DNA of 64,000 nucleotides. Origin: Opitutaceae bacterium (GTDB lineage Bacteria > Verrucomicrobiota > Verrucomicrobiia > Opitutales > Opitutaceae). Made by a program: the position numbers and the translations under genes. Shown in pieces: positions 25,220-32,504 of the stretch. The notes beneath the pieces are model-generated. The model saw nothing but the letters and a program-made list of their open reading frames with translations. It did no database searches and had not been told where the DNA came from. Positions within the stretch are counted from its first letter, which is position 1. Each line of letters starts with the position of its first letter. Location of the stretch: NCBI GenBank assembly GCA_027482185.1, contig JAIXWF010000011.1, forward strand, positions 248,001 to 312,000, read 5' to 3'.

Positions 25220-26851
25220 TCAGGGCGCAACGGGGCGGAGAATCGGATTCTCGATCTGGAAGAGGACGCGGCCCGGGGTGCCGTCGTCGGCCTCCGTCGT
25301 CTCGCCGCCGGCCGCGAACACGAGCCGCGTTTCCCCGGGCGCCACGGCGAGCGCCGGCAACGCGAGCGTGCGCCGCCCCGCGGGCAATTCGCCCCGGAAG
25401 ATGACCGTCCCGCCCTGCTGCACCTCGAGCGCGCGGGCGATCCGCGAACGCGTCAGGAACCGCAATTCCACGCGCACCGGCGCCGCGCCCGGATTGCGCA
25501 AAACCAACGTCGCCTCGGGCCCGCGCGCCCAACGCCAGGTCGTCTCGCCGTCCCATTGCTGCGGCGACCACCCGTCGGCGTAGACCGCCTGCACGGCCGC
25601 ACCGGCGCCCTCGGCCGCAAACTCGGCCGGCGGCGGCGGCGCCTTCACGAATCGCATCTGGTCGAAATAGCGCACGCCGAAGGGCACGAAACAGTTGCCC
25701 AGCAGGAACCAGATCAGCCACGCCTTCGTCGGCCGCAGCGCCAGCAGCAGGTTGAACGCGAGCGTGATCGGCAGCGCGTGGCGCGTGATCGTGAAGTGGC
25801 TCTCCCACGACAGGAAACTGATGCAGGAGAAATACACCGCCGCGACCGCGCCGAACCGCCAGATCGGGCTCTTCCAATCGCGATGCAGCACGACATACAC
25901 GCTCTGCGTGACGACGGAGACGATCGTCAGCACGGCGTGCAGGTCGTAGCTCTTGTAGAATTCGAAAAACAGCCGGTGCCAGCGGATCGGGCCGTGGAAC
26001 GCGGTGACGCTGAACTCGCCGAGCTTCTCCATCATGCCGCGGAACGGGAGCGTGAGGTTGCCGCCGTCGAAGCCGACCTCGCGGCCGCGGAAACGCCACA
26101 GCACATACGCCACCCAGAGCAGCAGCGGGATCACGGCGATGAGCCCGTAGACGAAATTTTTGCGGATCGCCTCGCGCCAAGGCGGGCGGATCTCCGCGAG
26201 GCCGACAAAGCCGATGAGCGACGTGCTGCGCACCAGCGCGGCGGCCGCCAACAATCCGGCGCCGGCCGTGCCGCCGACGGTGAGCGCCGCGAGAATCAAC
26301 GTGAAGCTCGGCAGATCGGTGAGCGAGGCCTGCATCGACTCGATCACGCCGCAGGTGAGCAGCATCGCCGCAAAACCCGCGAGTCCGCTCCAGCCCAGCG
26401 GCGCGAACAGCCGGCCGGTGAGCCACGCGAACGGGATCCAGAACAGGAGGTTCATCGCCGCGTAGGCGTTGATGACCCAGAACGGCTGCCCGAAGCCGAC
26501 GATCCACGCCAGCCACGAGACCAAGATGCGCTGCCCCCGGTAGGGCGGATTGTCCAACGCGACATGCAACTGCGGGTCGCGCAGGAGCGGATCGAGGGCC
26601 ATCTGCGCGTAGAGTTGGCCGTCGAAGCCCCAGCGGTGCGCGGGAAAGGGATCGATGTACTTCGGGGTCGCGCGGAAAACGGCGAGCCCGCGGTCGTCGA
26701 ACTCGCGGCCGACCCGCAGGAACTTCGTGATCCCGTGCTCGGGCGTCCAGATGCCCGCGTACACGTGCAGCAAAAACGCGAACGCGGCGAGCGCCACGAG
26801 GACGAATGCCCAGCGGGGCGGTGGCGGAAGTTGGAAGCGCGGGGCCGGCAC
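25220..26851 (-). CDS. polytopic membrane protein, glycosyltransferase-like
   Basis: A 543-residue inner-membrane protein with about ten hydrophobic helices between residues ~14 and 400 and a C-terminal soluble beta-rich domain (about 420-543). The first loop after helix 1 carries FDDRGLAVF and [12 protein letters not shown]. Such acidic first loops are common in GT-C glycosyltransferases that use lipid-linked sugars. I cannot assign a family with confidence. It lies 72 bp upstream of prfB in the same direction. The alternative is an uncharacterised conserved membrane protein of Verrucomicrobiota. Confidence 0.7.
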
Positions 26852-27065
26852 GAAAAGCGGAACGCGCAGTCAAACGCAGCCGCGCGCCGCGCCGGAAGCT
26901 TTTTCGGCGGCGGCCGCCGCGATCACGCCGACGGACGCCCCGGATCGGTCGGTCGGAAATTCGATCGCACAGGTCCATGACCCCGGCGGCGTGGCGAGCG
27001 AGGCCTAACGCGTTCGGTTCCGCGGCCAATCCGCCGCCGAAAATTCTCGGGAACCCGGTTCCGCT

Positions 27066-27305
27066 TCAGCGCGCCGGAAACGCCCAGGGATCCCGGGTCA
27101 GTTCGTGCAAGCCTGCCTCGGCCACCCCGGTCAGCACCAGCGCCATACCGATCCCGCCGACGAGCACGAGCACTGCGCCGACGAGCAAGGCACGCGCCCG
27201 CGCCCGAGACGCGGGATCGAAGTCGCCGGGTCCACGGCGGCGTGAGCGTCGCCGTCGGCGCCGCGGCGCCGAAGCTCCATGGAGGGGCTGGACGTCGGAC
27301 TTCAT
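27066..27305 (-). CDS. small single-helix membrane protein (hypothetical)
   Basis: A 79-residue ORF. A highly basic N-terminal half (ASAPRRRRRRSRRRG) precedes one clear transmembrane segment, LLVGAVLVLVGGIGMALVLT, and a short outside tail. The charge pattern predicts N-in topology. No family is recognised. It stands alone between nos and the membrane protein gene on the same strand. Its size and high GC leave real doubt that it is translated. Confidence 0.45.
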   Translation of the reverse strand: MKSDVQPLHGASAPRRRRRRSRRRGPGDFDPASRARARALLVGAVLVLVGGIGMALVLTGVAEAGLHELTRDPWAFPAR

Positions 27306-27459
27306 CGGCGGGCCGGCCGCGCCGGCCAGTCGCCATTGGGCCGGCTAGAGAGCAAGTTGCGACGAAGGGGCATGGGACGAAGATTATGATCGGATACGCC
27401 GCCTGAAGGAATCGGGGCGATCCCCTCCCCGTCGGGAGAATCTTTCCCTCGGCGGGCCG

Positions 27460-28611
27460 CTATTCCGGCCGAAAAAACTCCGGCCGCAGGCCGAGATCGG
27501 TCATCGGCAGGTGGAACACCGGCGTCACCGAACCCGACAGCGGCGGCACGATCCAATCCCAGCGGGCGGACACCGCGCGGCCCGCTTTCTCCTCGGCCCC
27601 GCAGAATCGGACGAACTCCGCACTCGCGGTGTGGTGATCCACGATCCGGCAGCCGGCCGCGGCAAACGAGTGCAGCACCGCTGTGTTCAATTCCACCAGC
27701 GCGCGGTCCTGCCAAAGCACCGACCTCGCCGCGGTGTCCAAGCCCATCAGCCGCGCCACCGCGGGCAGCACGTTGTAGCGGGCCTCGTCGCCGAGATTGC
27801 GGCAGGCTATCTCCGTACCCATGTACCAGCCGCTGAACGGCGCGAACGGAAACACCGTGCCCGCCACGCGAAACGCGAGATCCGTCACCGTCGGAATGGC
27901 GTACCACCGGAGTCCCAGACCCGCAAAGGCCGGCAGGTTGGGATGCGACAGTACGACTTCCCGGATCAGCCCGGGAGGCACGGCAAACAGCACCGGCCGC
28001 CCGTCCGCGCCGATCAGGATCCAGGGCAGGAGATCGAATGCAGAGCGGCAACGGGGCGGATTCCAGCCGAGCGCGATCGCTTCGGCGGTCAGCCCGACAT
28101 TCAGCGGATCCCCGAGTACCGTGCCGTTTTGACGATAGCCCGCGTAGCCCGCCAGCTGCCGGTTACGCATCCTGATCCCGCGCTGCCCGGGCCCGGCCGG
28201 GGCAAACACCGTCATGTACGGACGCACCGCCCCTTCGACCGTCGAGTTTTCCACGTGTTCGCAGAGGGCCGCCGCCACTCCGGCCACGTCCCCGCAATCG
28301 CGCCGGTCCCTTACCTGCAGGCTGCGCCAATACAGGCGGCCGATGCACCGCGCTTGGTTGCGCCAGGCAACCCGTGCGCCGAAAGCCAGCTCGGCCTCCG
28401 TGAGCGCGGCAGGTTGCCCCGCTTCCAGTTCGCGCCGGCACTGCTCGAGCCGGACGGCCGCCGTCGTCCCGAGCACGCCGGCGGCCTCGGCTTCCCGGAA
28501 CAGCGCCGCCAGTTCGGCTTCGCCGGTTTCCGCCCTTCCCGCGCACTCGGAGTGGGTCAAGCCGGTCGGGAGCGATAGGGTGCAGGAGGTTCCGCGCCGA
28601 TCGGCCGTCAT
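27460..28611 (-). CDS. nos: nitric oxide synthase oxygenase domain protein
   Basis: A 383-residue bacterial NOS oxygenase, the heme enzyme that converts L-arginine to citrulline and NO. The proximal heme cysteine is C89 in WRNQARCIGR. The substrate-binding glutamate is E267 in GWYMGTEIACRNL. The pterin-site and heme-edge motif is WDWIVPPLSGSVTPVFH (351-367). QNGTVLGDPLNV near 161-172 is also typical. Length matches Bacillus-type NOS, with no N-terminal zinc loop and no attached reductase, so electrons must come from other cellular reductases. The ATG at 28611 overlaps the upstream kinase stop (ATGA). It is the last gene of an operon with three two-component genes; regulation by that system is inference. 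Confidence 0.95.
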   Translation of the reverse strand: MTADRRGTSCTLSLPTGLTHSECAGRAETGEAELAALFREAEAAGVLGTTAAVRLEQCRRELEAGQPAALTEAELAFGARVAWRNQARCIGRLYWRSLQVRDRRDCGDVAGVAAALCEHVENSTVEGAVRPYMTVFAPAGPGQRGIRMRNRQLAGYAGYRQNGTVLGDPLNVGLTAEAIALGWNPPRCRSAFDLLPWILIGADGRPVLFAVPPGLIREVVLSHPNLPAFAGLGLRWYAIPTVTDLAFRVAGTVFPFAPFSGWYMGTEIACRNLGDEARYNVLPAVARLMGLDTAARSVLWQDRALVELNTAVLHSFAAAGCRIVDHHTASAEFVRFCGAEEKAGRAVSARWDWIVPPLSGSVTPVFHLPMTDLGLRPEFFRPE

Positions 28612-29729
28612 CTCGCCACCTCGGCCAACGGCAGCACAAGCCGGGCGGAAAGCCCGGGCGCGGGGGAATTTCCCAGGAGGAAAAACTCGCCGCCGCAGGC
28701 CCGCGCATAGTCGCGGGCCAGGACCAACCCCAGACCGAGCCCCTGCTGCTCGAACTGCTCGCGCCGGAATTGCCGCAGCGGGGCGACGGCCGCGATCTCC
28801 GCTTCGGTCATGCCCCGACCTTCGTCGATCACCGTGATGGCATAAAAGTCCCGGACCGGTCGCCCCGACACCCGGATGGAAGTGCCCGCCGCGGAGAACT
28901 TGCATGCATTCTCGACCAGATGCCGCACGACCCACGGCAGGCCCTGCGGCAGCACCGACACCGGCGCCGACACCGCATCCAGCGTGAAATCCTGCGTGCG
29001 GCCCGCCTCGCACAAAGGCCCGTCGCACCATTTCGCCAGAACACCGATTTCCAGGGGAATCGTCGCCCGCACGATCGTCTGGCCTTCGCAACGGCGGTTT
29101 TCCGTTTCCACCAGCGAAGCCCACAGGGAAAAATCCTCCGCCACCCGCAACAGGCGTTCGCCCGACCGCCGCAGGTAGCCGCCGAACTCGATGTGCTCGC
29201 GGGACGAAAGCGGGTCCTTCATCTCCCCGCGCATCGTGAGCAGATCCGCATAGCCCAGCACGCCGGTCAGCGGAGTGCGCAGCTCGTGGGGCAACACGCG
29301 GGTCAAAAAATAGCGCTGGTGGTCGTTGAGCCGGCGCACGCGCTCGGCACGCTGCAGCCGCAGCTCGATCGTCCGCAGGAGATCGCCGGTCCGGTACGGC
29401 TTCGTCACGTAGTCGTCCGCGCCGAGGGACATGCCCCGCCGCTGGTCGGCGCTGTCCGCCTTGGCCGACACAATGATGAACGGAGTGTCGACCAGCTGCG
29501 GGCGCGTCTGGATGCGCTCGAGCAACTCGAAACCGTCGCAGTTCGGCATCCGCACGTCGCTCAGGATCAGATCGGGCGCAAACGACGCCATCGCCTCCAG
29601 GGCCACGGCCCCGTCCGGCACCGCCACCACGCGATAGCCCGCATCCTCCAGCGCCGAGGCGGTAACATCGCGGATCAGGTCGTCGTCCTCGGCCAGGAGG
29701 ATTGTCTTGGGGCTCTTGGAATCGTTCAT
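28608..29729 (-). CDS. receiver - histidine kinase hybrid protein
   Basis: A 373-residue cytoplasmic protein with an N-terminal receiver (about 8-125; acidic EDDD, phosphoacceptor D58 in LILSDVRMP, K110 in YVTKPY). A histidine kinase core follows: H148 in LPHELRTPLTG, N-box HLVENACKFS, G1 DEGRGM, G2 QGLGLGLVLA. Receiver-first kinases usually work as intermediates that are switched by an upstream kinase and in turn phosphorylate another partner. It overlaps the upstream PAS kinase and the downstream nos gene by 4 bp (ATGA) each, so stoichiometric production with nos is likely. No membrane segment is seen. Confidence 0.92.
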   Translation of the reverse strand: MNDSKSPKTILLAEDDDLIRDVTASALEDAGYRVVAVPDGAVALEAMASFAPDLILSDVRMPNCDGFELLERIQTRPQLVDTPFIIVSAKADSADQRRGMSLGADDYVTKPYRTGDLLRTIELRLQRAERVRRLNDHQRYFLTRVLPHELRTPLTGVLGYADLLTMRGEMKDPLSSREHIEFGGYLRRSGERLLRVAEDFSLWASLVETENRRCEGQTIVRATIPLEIGVLAKWCDGPLCEAGRTQDFTLDAVSAPVSVLPQGLPWVVRHLVENACKFSAAGTSIRVSGRPVRDFYAITVIDEGRGMTEAEIAAVAPLRQFRREQFEQQGLGLGLVLARDYARACGGEFFLLGNSPAPGLSARLVLPLAEVAR

Positions 29730-31666
29730 GAATACGGCGAGCGGGACCAGGGGGCGGCCGGCAAGTCGGGCTCGGCGGCCGCAGGCTCGAGCGGGACGGC
29801 GACCGTGAATGTCGTCCCCGCCCCGGGCAGCGACTCGCAGCCGATGGTGCCGCCGTGCGCCGTCACGATGCGCCGCACGATGGCCAGACCCAGGCCCGTG
29901 CCGTGGACGCCGGCGACATTGCCCGCGCGGAAAAAAGGCTCGAACAGCCGTCGCTGGTCCGCCTCCGGAATACCGCGGCCGCGGTCTCGCACCGCCAGCC
30001 GCCAGCGTCCCTCGCCGAACGCCAAGGTCACGGTCACTGCGGTATCCGGTTCCGAATACTTCAGGGCATTCGAGATCAGGTTGTCGACCACGACACGGAT
30101 CTGCGCCGGATTGAAGCCGGCCTTCACCGGCGCCGCCGGCGACGCCAGTTCGACCCGCGGGGCCGGCAGCGAGCCGTTGAATGTCTCCACCGCCTGCCGC
30201 AGCAGCGCCGCGATGTCCGCCGGCTCGAAGTTCGCGGCCCCCCCGGCATGGTCGAGCTGGTTGAGCAGCAGCACCTCGTCCACCAGTGCCTTGAAATTTC
30301 CCAGCACCTTGGCCTGCAGCGCCAGATGCCGGACGAACGGCGGCTGGAGTTCGGCGGGCAACCGGTCCGCGCTCCGCTCGAGCAGGAAATGGACCCCTTG
30401 GATAGCCGACAGCGGCGTCCGGAACTCGTGCGAGACCATCGCGACAAGCTCCCGCTGCATGGCGAGAAATTCGTCGCGCCGGCGGGCGAGCGCGGCCGCG
30501 GCGCGCGACAGCTCCCGCCTGGCCGTCACATCTGTGACCATGGTGCAGATGCGCCAAGTACCGTTCGCCGCCGGTTGCAGCCGGAACTTCTGCACCTCCC
30601 AGATGACATTGCCGCCCGACGGCAGCGTGAAGGGAAAATCGAAAATCACCGCGTTGGTTTCCCCGAGCTGGCGATCCGCAATCGCCCAACCGGAGTAGTC
30701 CGGCTCACGGCGCAGCGTTGCGTCGATCTCGGCCAACGCTTCCGGTCCGGCGCCGGCTCCGAACCATTGCCGACAGATCCGATTGGCGAACTCGATGCGG
30801 CTGTCGGCCCCCTGCAGGATCAGCCCCAGCGGCAGTTCGTCGAGCAGTTCGGCGAGCAGCGACTCCGACCGACGCAGCCGTTCCGAGGTCTCGATCTCAC
30901 GCGAACAGTCGCGGCACTTCCAGACCAGGTGGCCGACCGGCAGCCGCGAAAGGGAAATCGCGGCCTGGAAAGTGGACCCATCCCGCCGCTGGACCGCAAC
31001 GACACCCTGCCATGCGGCGTGGGCCGCGAGGGCCGGGAACGCCTTCGCTTCCAGCTCCCGGGCAGCGGCACGACCGCAAAGCTCGGACCACTCCCGGCCC
31101 AGCAGATCGCCGCGGTCGCCGAACCGGAAGAGCTCGGCGAGGCTTTCGTTGAGGTAACGGAATTTGCCCCCGCTGTCGGTCACGGCCAAGCCCAGCTCTC
31201 CGGATTCGACCGCGAGACGAAACGGATTCGCCGCTCCGGTCACGCCTTCGATGCCCATGATCTCGGTCACGATCCCTATCGTCAACGGCCCGGTGGGCGA
31301 CTCCCGCAGCGCCAACGATGCATGGAGGGTGCGGCGCCGGCCGTCCCCGCCGCAGACGACGAACGTACGCTCCACCCGCCGGCCTAGCAGCAGGTCGCCC
31401 CGCAGATTCAAAAGCTGGGCCCGGTCGACCGGCTCCAGCGCGGCCTGCCAGGCGTCGGGATCCGCCCGCAGGGCGTCGGCACTCACCCCGAGATAGCGTT
31501 CGAAATCCCCTTTGAGAAACAGATGTCGCCGGGTCGTGGCATCCATCACAAAGGCGAGGGCGATGCCGGCGGATGCATGCGCCGAGATCAGCTCGCTGGC
31601 TTTGTCCGCGGGAAGGCACTGGGCGCGCCATTCCGGGGGGACGGTGATTTCGGCGACCTCGCTCAC
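29726..31666 (-). CDS. cytosolic PAS-domain sensor histidine kinase
   Basis: A 646-residue kinase without membrane helices. Three PAS-like sensor regions are visible, around residues 30-138, 150-255 and 270-385. The HisKA domain has H413 in MVSHEFRTPLS, and the ATPase domain shows VVDNLISNALKYS, DRGRGIPEADQRRLF and GTGLGLAIVRRIV. A CxxC pair (C251, C254 in WKCRDCSRE) lies between PAS 2 and PAS 3 and could serve redox or metal sensing; this is inference. The start is GTG at 31666, overlapping the TGA of the NarL-type gene (GTGA). It probably phosphorylates one or both receiver proteins encoded beside it. Confidence 0.9.
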   Translation of the reverse strand: MSEVAEITVPPEWRAQCLPADKASELISAHASAGIALAFVMDATTRRHLFLKGDFERYLGVSADALRADPDAWQAALEPVDRAQLLNLRGDLLLGRRVERTFVVCGGDGRRRTLHASLALRESPTGPLTIGIVTEIMGIEGVTGAANPFRLAVESGELGLAVTDSGGKFRYLNESLAELFRFGDRGDLLGREWSELCGRAAARELEAKAFPALAAHAAWQGVVAVQRRDGSTFQAAISLSRLPVGHLVWKCRDCSREIETSERLRRSESLLAELLDELPLGLILQGADSRIEFANRICRQWFGAGAGPEALAEIDATLRREPDYSGWAIADRQLGETNAVIFDFPFTLPSGGNVIWEVQKFRLQPAANGTWRICTMVTDVTARRELSRAAAALARRRDEFLAMQRELVAMVSHEFRTPLSAIQGVHFLLERSADRLPAELQPPFVRHLALQAKVLGNFKALVDEVLLLNQLDHAGGAANFEPADIAALLRQAVETFNGSLPAPRVELASPAAPVKAGFNPAQIRVVVDNLISNALKYSEPDTAVTVTLAFGEGRWRLAVRDRGRGIPEADQRRLFEPFFRAGNVAGVHGTGLGLAIVRRIVTAHGGTIGCESLPGAGTTFTVAVPLEPAAAEPDLPAAPWSRSPYS

Positions 31667-32388
31667 ATCGAGTCCTCCGGCGAAACCAACGCCGCCGGCA
31701 ACTGCCGCAGGATCGAATCGCGCCCCGCCGGAACCAGCCCGAGGGCCTGCGCCCGCGGCACGAGATCCCGGTTCGATTTGGCATCCAGCCTCGCCGAGAT
31801 CCGATCGCGGGACTTGTAAACGGAAGAAAGCGAGCGGGCCATCTCGTCGGCGATCTCCTTGGGCGTCCGGTCTGCAGCGAGCAGGCGCAGGATCCTCAAG
31901 TCGTCGGCCGCGAGGGGCTTCTTCTTGGAGTGCAGACGGACGAGATCGCGCAGGATCTCGCTGACCGCGGGGTCGAGCGGAAACTCCCCCCGCACCACGG
32001 CGCGGATCGATTCCAGCAATTCGGGTACGGGAGCGGACTTCACGAGAAACGCGCAAACCCCGAGGCCGAACGCGGCCTGCATGGATTCCGGGGTAGCGAG
32101 GCCGGTAAAGACCACCACCTTCAGGTCCGGCATCGCCTCGAGCGCCGCCGCGATGATTTCCAAACCGCTCATGCCCGGCATCATCAGGTCGACCAGAAGC
32201 AGATCGACCGGATGGGCGCAGAGAAAGGCAAGTGCATCCGCGCCGTTTTCAGCCGATCCAACCACCGCAAAATCCCCGCCGGCGCAGAGCACCTCGGCCA
32301 GTGCTGAGGAGTAGATTGGATGGTCGTCGACCAAAAGCACCTTGGTCGGAGACACGGCAGTCGCCGCGGGTTTGGCGGATGGGGACAT
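31663..32388 (-). CDS. NarL/FixJ-type response regulator
   Basis: A 241-residue regulator. The receiver has DDH at 21-23, D67 in LLLVDLMMPG and K117 in FLVKSA. The C-terminal helix-turn-helix (about 168-220; LRILRLLAADRTPKEIADEM) is LuxR-like but diverged, with a longer than usual tail to residue 241. It is the first gene of the nos operon: the ATG at 32388 follows a 116-bp gap, and its stop overlaps the kinase start. It is the likely DNA-binding output of the system and may control the operon itself; the target is not visible. Confidence 0.88.
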   Translation of the reverse strand: MSPSAKPAATAVSPTKVLLVDDHPIYSSALAEVLCAGGDFAVVGSAENGADALAFLCAHPVDLLLVDLMMPGMSGLEIIAAALEAMPDLKVVVFTGLATPESMQAAFGLGVCAFLVKSAPVPELLESIRAVVRGEFPLDPAVSEILRDLVRLHSKKKPLAADDLRILRLLAADRTPKEIADEMARSLSSVYKSRDRISARLDAKSNRDLVPRAQALGLVPAGRDSILRQLPAALVSPEDSM

Positions 32389-32477
32389 CGTGGACTTGGA
32401 CGGTCCGACGAAAGAGCAATTGCCAGAGGAACGACAAATACAGCCCGGTCCAAAGATTCGCCCGGAGCTTGAGTAGA

Positions 32478-32498
32478 AAGCCCGGACAGGACGGGCCT
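32478..32498 (-). terminator. possible weak terminator of the gmd-fcl operon
   Basis: On the minus strand GCCCG and CGGGC (about 5 bp plus a wobble pair) frame a 7-nt loop and are followed by TTTCT. It lies just after the fcl stop and before the nos operon. Confidence 0.35.
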
Positions 32499-32504
32499 GC
32501 GCCT

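Follow-up and report, generated by a model that had tools for sequence, protein, structure and literature searches.

The gene run and its products

The window, by which we mean the whole stretch of 64,000 nucleotides of the Opitutaceae genome that was analysed, carries a run of four genes on its minus strand. ORF analysis reads them from 32388 down to 27460 in the order RR, HK, HYB and NOS, namely a response regulator (31663..32388, ATG start, 241 aa), a cytosolic histidine kinase (29726..31666, GTG start, 646 aa), a receiver-first hybrid kinase (28608..29729, ATG start, 373 aa) and a nitric oxide synthase oxygenase without a reductase domain (27460..28611, ATG start, 383 aa). These coordinates, and the overlaps GTGA, ATGA and ATGA at RR/HK, HK/HYB and HYB/NOS, agree with the original prediction of four minus-strand genes that overlap by 4 bp at each junction. 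Overlaps of four bases are as such commonplace in bacterial operons, and the one between HYB and NOS was not kept among relatives, where the gap is 28 bp in L194, 138 bp in L201 and more than 700 bp in L230, provided that the start codons were chosen correctly. Because the dN/dS ratios against the sister locus L194 were 0.23 for RR, 0.25 for HK, 0.13 for HYB and 0.17 for NOS, the four ORFs are not products of chance; the genes are under purifying selection.

The count of four stands for these ORFs, and a probable fifth gene had been overlooked. The minus-strand ORF at 27066..27305 would encode a basic protein of 79 aa with one hydrophobic span (2.75), and is shared with L194, in which it occupies the same place (55% identity, dN/dS 0.54). 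Small single-span ORFs also follow HYB in L304, L237, L230 and L149. Those of different groups align poorly and it is unsure that they form a single family; for most of the 24 triads (RR-HK-HYB) the same scan found none.

In RR, the receiver part of the predicted NarL-type regulator was clear (Response_reg, 76 bits) and the LuxR-type helix-turn-helix was weak, the GerE score of 21.3 bits lying under the cut-off of 23.5, compared to 31.4 for a related second regulator in L017. HK contains PAS, HisKA and HATPase_c domains, with the phospho-acceptor histidine within HEFRTPL at 413, and nowhere in it does a hydrophobic span reach 1.6. Only its second and third PAS units exceed the Pfam cut-off (unit 1, 20.7 bits vs 25.6); the description of HK as a cytosolic three-PAS kinase gained support from an AlphaFold2 model (input of 12 sequences; mean pLDDT 78, pTM 0.38) in which three units of PAS-like strands and helices span roughly 35-135, 159-253 and 281-379. 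PAS units can bind heme or flavin. The domains of HYB are Response_reg, HisKA and HATPase_c. The two-component motifs are intact, including HEFRTPL at 413, HELRTPL at 148, the N and G boxes and the receiver motifs VDLM and SDVR. No H-NOX domain was found by Pfam in RR, HK, HYB or NOS.

That the last gene encodes a full NOS oxygenase with its heme, substrate and pterin residues was borne out. The product scored 412 bits against NO_synthase (PF02898; cut-off 22.7), covering positions 26-356 of 362, and its residues 49-381 align with the structures of eNOS and the Bacillus subtilis NOS among the PDB matches. The alignment places C89, E267, W351 and W353 at positions that we take to be those of the heme ligand, the substrate residue and, for both tryptophans, the pterin site. 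Over the 131 of 133 NOS rows that the residue count takes in, the glutamate and both tryptophans are present in all and the cysteine in 130, the remaining row having a gap. The operon copy is the sole NOS found in the source genome. At a position that is presumably the one in the heme pocket, assigned by means of a sequence motif, all six full triad-linked rows have valine (V242 in the window NOS); the 67 verrucomicrobial rows have 26 Val, 31 Ile and 10 Leu, compared to 8, 54 and 2 in the 64 other rows, a count weakened by the relatedness of the rows.

NOS was also met as the C-terminal part of fusions, following two cyclic-nucleotide-binding domains, a BFD-like [2Fe-2S] domain and an FAD-binding domain, in an Opitutia relative (L233:5518-8781) and in a Sericytochromatia MAG (L081:5799-9065); L206:7923-9785 holds the FAD and NOS part of the same architecture. 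An enzyme that joins NOS to a reductase and to an input from cyclic nucleotides would merit separate study.

Just 5' of the RR start lies the palindrome CGGACCGTCC (32398..32407, minus strand), which among 22 triads is common to the window and L194 only. A palindromic motif of the AGGTA-N4-TACCT type scored 257 over 21 upstream regions, several of them from close relatives, vs 181, 182 and 187 in three single-base shuffles run with half the restarts. It occurs 5' of RR in L209, L152, L237, L303, L304, L310, L313 and others, and is perhaps the regulator's own operator. The window copy is poor (3.3 bits) and no consistent copy was found before the scanned NOS genes, the best (10.1 bits) being in the unlinked L213; for these reasons the motif was not used as evidence, and a shared operator of triad and NOS was set aside. 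No sigma-70-type match was found 5' of RR. One weak promoter-like match fell within HK, vs 0.4 expected, and there were three terminator-like matches vs 4.2 expected.

The genomic block and its occurrence in relatives

The operon lies in a discrete block (26907..32504). By blastn, congener L298 has in its place only 115 bp between the two flanks, and in L194 (genome G523) the block occupies the same site, between fcl and a gene for a 543-aa protein with six hydrophobic spans, with identities to the window proteins of 69% (RR), 71% (HK), 86% (HYB) and 83% (NOS). That 543-aa protein, encoded at 25220-26851 in the window, has no Pfam match and has relatives in all 27 genomes of the genus. Between the flanks in L300 (1.7 kb) and L301 (2.4 kb) there was no match to the window block (blastn, plus strand) or to its proteins (tblastn); in L299 and L302 fcl was not found within the stretch fetched, and none of the genomes of L298, L299, L300, L301 and L302 gave a NOS match. 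These comparisons indicate that the block comes and goes as a whole. Its genes have a GC3 of 0.80-0.85, compared to 0.89-0.94 in four flanking genes, and a dS of 0.65-1.15, compared to 0.45 for two flanking genes, a contrast that would fit both a later arrival and a faster evolution of the block. No flanking repeats stood out as the mark of a mobile element, and no Rfam match reached the gathering threshold.

Matches to PF02898 were found in 14 of 27 genomes of the genus, 44 of 200 of the family (43 over the cut-off), 13 of 177 of the order and 18 of 387 of the phylum, counts that include the source genome. The original prediction made its dedicated system depend on conserved linkage of nos with these kinases in relatives, and the search found the triad near NOS in 7 of 68 verrucomicrobial NOS loci, some genomes supplying two: the window (L107), L194, L201, L230, L209, L226 and L237, from genera g1, g77 and g263 of one family. 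As the contig breaks off near NOS at some of the loci, not every absence is informative. An HK match, P0003 (68%), and a NOS match, P0055 (79%), each third among the matches listed, probably lie on the same contig (longest contig, 7,074 bases), a hint of further linkage.

The gene order varies among the linked loci. NOS comes last in the window, L194, L201 and L230, and precedes the triad by about 700 bp in L209. In L226, in which no RR was found, HYB is followed by a membrane kinase, the stop codon of which shares a base with the start of NOS (TAATG), and in L237 the triad is accompanied only by a NOS fragment. The L226 kinase (L226:7729-9054) has four hydrophobic spans in place of the PAS units, and its kinase core is 44% identical to that of the window HK; to judge from this alignment, the sensor part has been exchanged. 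A second, decayed triad lies 3' of NOS in L201 (L201:10243-11881); its kinase is shortened and stops interrupt its hybrid gene.

Outside the phylum such neighbours are rare. Of the 54 verrucomicrobial loci that could be tested, 8 have a HATPase gene no more than three genes away from NOS (two of these 8, L105 and L160, are not triads), vs 1 of 60 other loci, in line with the earlier claim that bacterial NOS usually occurs without linked histidine kinases; within five genes, the other loci give 3 of 60. Same-strand neighbours with a receiver or HATPase domain occur in 5 of 54 vs 2 of 60, the latter two being actinobacterial regulators (L042 and L070). The comparison takes in 54 of the 68 verrucomicrobial and 60 of the 62 other loci; in 9 of the 68, gene finding did not recover NOS, and short contigs account for the remaining exclusions. 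The REC and HATPase profiles used for it were built from the source family, so that distant kinases may escape them.

In the NOS trees, of which the first takes 77 of the 133 distinct rows and the second 28, L207 groups with five linked rows in a clade that both trees support (98 in the first; 100/98 in the second), and L209 lies elsewhere. The genome of L207 (G545) keeps a triad on a separate contig. In the HYB tree the linked rows require four changes. With linked sets defined by gene order, and the sets without L209 named after the earlier trees had been seen, the AU test rejected a single linked clade both for NOS (6 rows, 2e-37; 5 rows without L209, 9e-6) and for HYB (7 rows, 2e-74; 6 rows, 6e-4). 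Because the linked copies are not one clade, the linkage was often lost or never formed; a pairing made at least twice, and one made early and often lost, would both fit these trees. A fixed four-gene system was thus rejected. Of the dedicated system foreseen in the original prediction, the recurring linkage remains and the fixed composition does not, since most of the 68 loci are without the triad. The coupling of NOS and triad is real and recurring but patchy, and it is made of known parts.

How NOS may be controlled

We suggest that a dedicated two-component module governs the production of NOS, and give this reading a probability of roughly 55%. Judging from strand and overlaps, RR, HK, HYB and NOS would be read from one transcript with coupled translation. 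As a cytosolic PAS kinase, HK would respond to a signal from inside the cell, for which redox state, oxygen and NO are the most plausible candidates. It would then phosphorylate RR, the HYB receiver or both, as the catalytic motifs would allow, and HYB may tune the output as a second kinase or a phosphatase. RR would bind DNA and set the expression of the unit, such that NOS output would track the state of the kinase. Finally NOS, which has no reductase domain, would make NO from arginine by means of the cell's general electron donors, as is known of the family.

This reading is supported by the tight operon with intact motifs, the linkage in varied gene orders, its rarity elsewhere (the 1 of 60 loci), the gain or loss of the block as a unit, the purifying selection and a precedent in Staphylococcus aureus. 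A further point comes from the family, in which HYB relatives occur in at least 69 of 200 genomes at E 1e-60, with at most nine candidates scored per genome, so that absences are not firm. The best HYB match reached at least 440 bits in 19 genomes, and NOS was present somewhere in 10 of these 19 vs 34 of the 181 others (Fisher p 0.002, with the line at 440 bits drawn after the list had been seen and the two counts taken as the same 200 genomes). We give this result little weight because linked rows dominate the profile (seven vs two unlinked), each genome contributed few scored candidates and the genomes are related. Against the module reading stand the many triads without NOS, the many NOS genes without a triad, the lack of a single clade, the lack of an operator common to triad and NOS and the lack of a sigma-70-type match 5' of RR.

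The triads without NOS lead to another explanation, in which the triad has a general signalling role and its targets lie elsewhere, and NOS, having ended up 3' of it, gained only transcription. An adjoining NOS was absent from 17 of the 24 triad loci examined; the order RR-HK-HYB is found in 15 of these 17, and 10 have at least one junction that overlaps by 4 bp. The genes that come next vary, and are further kinases in six (L152, L306, L307, L308, L310 and L311). The source genome itself has a second, NOS-free copy of the triad on another contig, with a HYB 54% identical to that of the operon. The wide HYB-NOS gaps in L201 and L230 and the dispersal of the NOS-linked rows in both trees would be expected of such a passenger. 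However, the linkage recurs in three genera in varied gene orders and the coupling in the window is tight; in L226, NOS is tightly coupled to a different kinase, and the clade of five linked NOS rows also includes L207, whose genome retains a triad. On balance, we consider a passenger NOS rather doubtful.

It is also conceivable, and in our opinion distinctly unlikely, that the loop is closed, with NO from NOS, or its redox effect, as the signal of the PAS kinase, so that one circuit both makes and reads NO. A cytosolic three-PAS kinase encoded alongside NOS would suit this idea, as PAS units can hold heme or flavin. However, the fold search with HK returned only generic PAS kinases and receptors among the 50 matches listed, which gives no sign of a heme or flavin ligand; the kinases of L149 and L209 are without the first PAS unit, and that of L226 has membrane spans instead. 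It is the gene order alone that would point to sensing of NO by HK. H-NOX paired with kinases senses NO, and the sole H-NOX of the source genome is encoded apart from the operon, on contig C4 (L320:7012-7554), with a gene for HATPase and receiver domains on either side. This position suggests a separate NO receiver of this cell. H-NOX was found in 6 of the 27 genomes of the genus, and its association with NOS there was unsupported (4 of 14 NOS genomes vs 2 of 13 others). The valine of the linked NOS rows might also speak for a closed loop, because the consulted part of a 2022 review (PMC9500659) links valine at this position in mammalian NOS to an efficient release of NO, but this residue is present in 20 of 61 unlinked verrucomicrobial rows as well.

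A physical complex, in which NOS would work next to the small membrane protein, HYB or HK and supply local NO, for example for the S-nitrosation of the kinases, is highly improbable. The kinase-NOS overlap in L226 might hint at it, as might the small ORFs with a single span that lie close to triads in the window, L194, L304, L237 and L230; these ORFs align poorly across groups, and in most triads none was seen. Unlikely too, in our estimate, is a mobile and self-contained NO circuit, in which a phosphorelay would set and read NO, a Val-type NOS would release it fast with a small membrane partner, the whole would have been built repeatedly within Opitutia out of a triad for general signalling, and the H-NOX kinases would be a second receiver.

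Known systems and biological meaning

Like the B. subtilis type (PF02898), the window NOS consists of an oxygenase domain only, with conserved catalytic residues; unlike it, it has valine rather than isoleucine at the heme-pocket position and is encoded with kinases. A close parallel in control, as far as the consulted part of a 2023 study goes (PMC10580903), is S. aureus, in which the two-component system SrrAB acts on nos. There, as predicted here from the genes, a two-component system sets nos expression; in that source SrrAB is a global regulator, apparently encoded outside the nos operon, whereas in the window the genes are linked and a receiver-first hybrid kinase is added. The operon shares with H-NOX/hybrid kinase sensors the combination of NO biology and histidine kinases, but has no H-NOX of its own. 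It shares with the natural-product clusters of TxtD, RufN and PtnF a NOS in a dedicated gene cluster; those enzymes supply NO to biosynthesis, according to the consulted portion of the review (PMC9500659), whereas the window operon has no biosynthetic gene.

NOS genes have already been reported in Opitutae MAGs, with toxin genes not beside the one described in the consulted part of that report (PMC5673642). No published kinase-nos operon was found among the matches listed, at the level of titles and abstract openings, the subscription literature being mostly outside this scope. The NOS and the kinases are of ordinary kinds, and their recurring combination is new as far as the literature search reaches.

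In the portions consulted, the review describes the action of NO-related regulators on bNOS expression as little known (PMC9500659), and the regulation of bacterial nos and the reasons for making NO are called poorly understood there and in the S. aureus study (PMC10580903). Where a nos gene is linked to kinases of its own, the question of control can be put to a direct test, and the sensor could be transferred to a laboratory host for identification of its signal. The arrangement recurs across several genomes, one of which has a different sensor, and this also makes possible a comparative test of the coupling between NOS and kinases. Together, the position of NOS in the operon and the recurrence of the arrangement in relatives suggest that NO production in these bacteria is switched by a dedicated sensor system.
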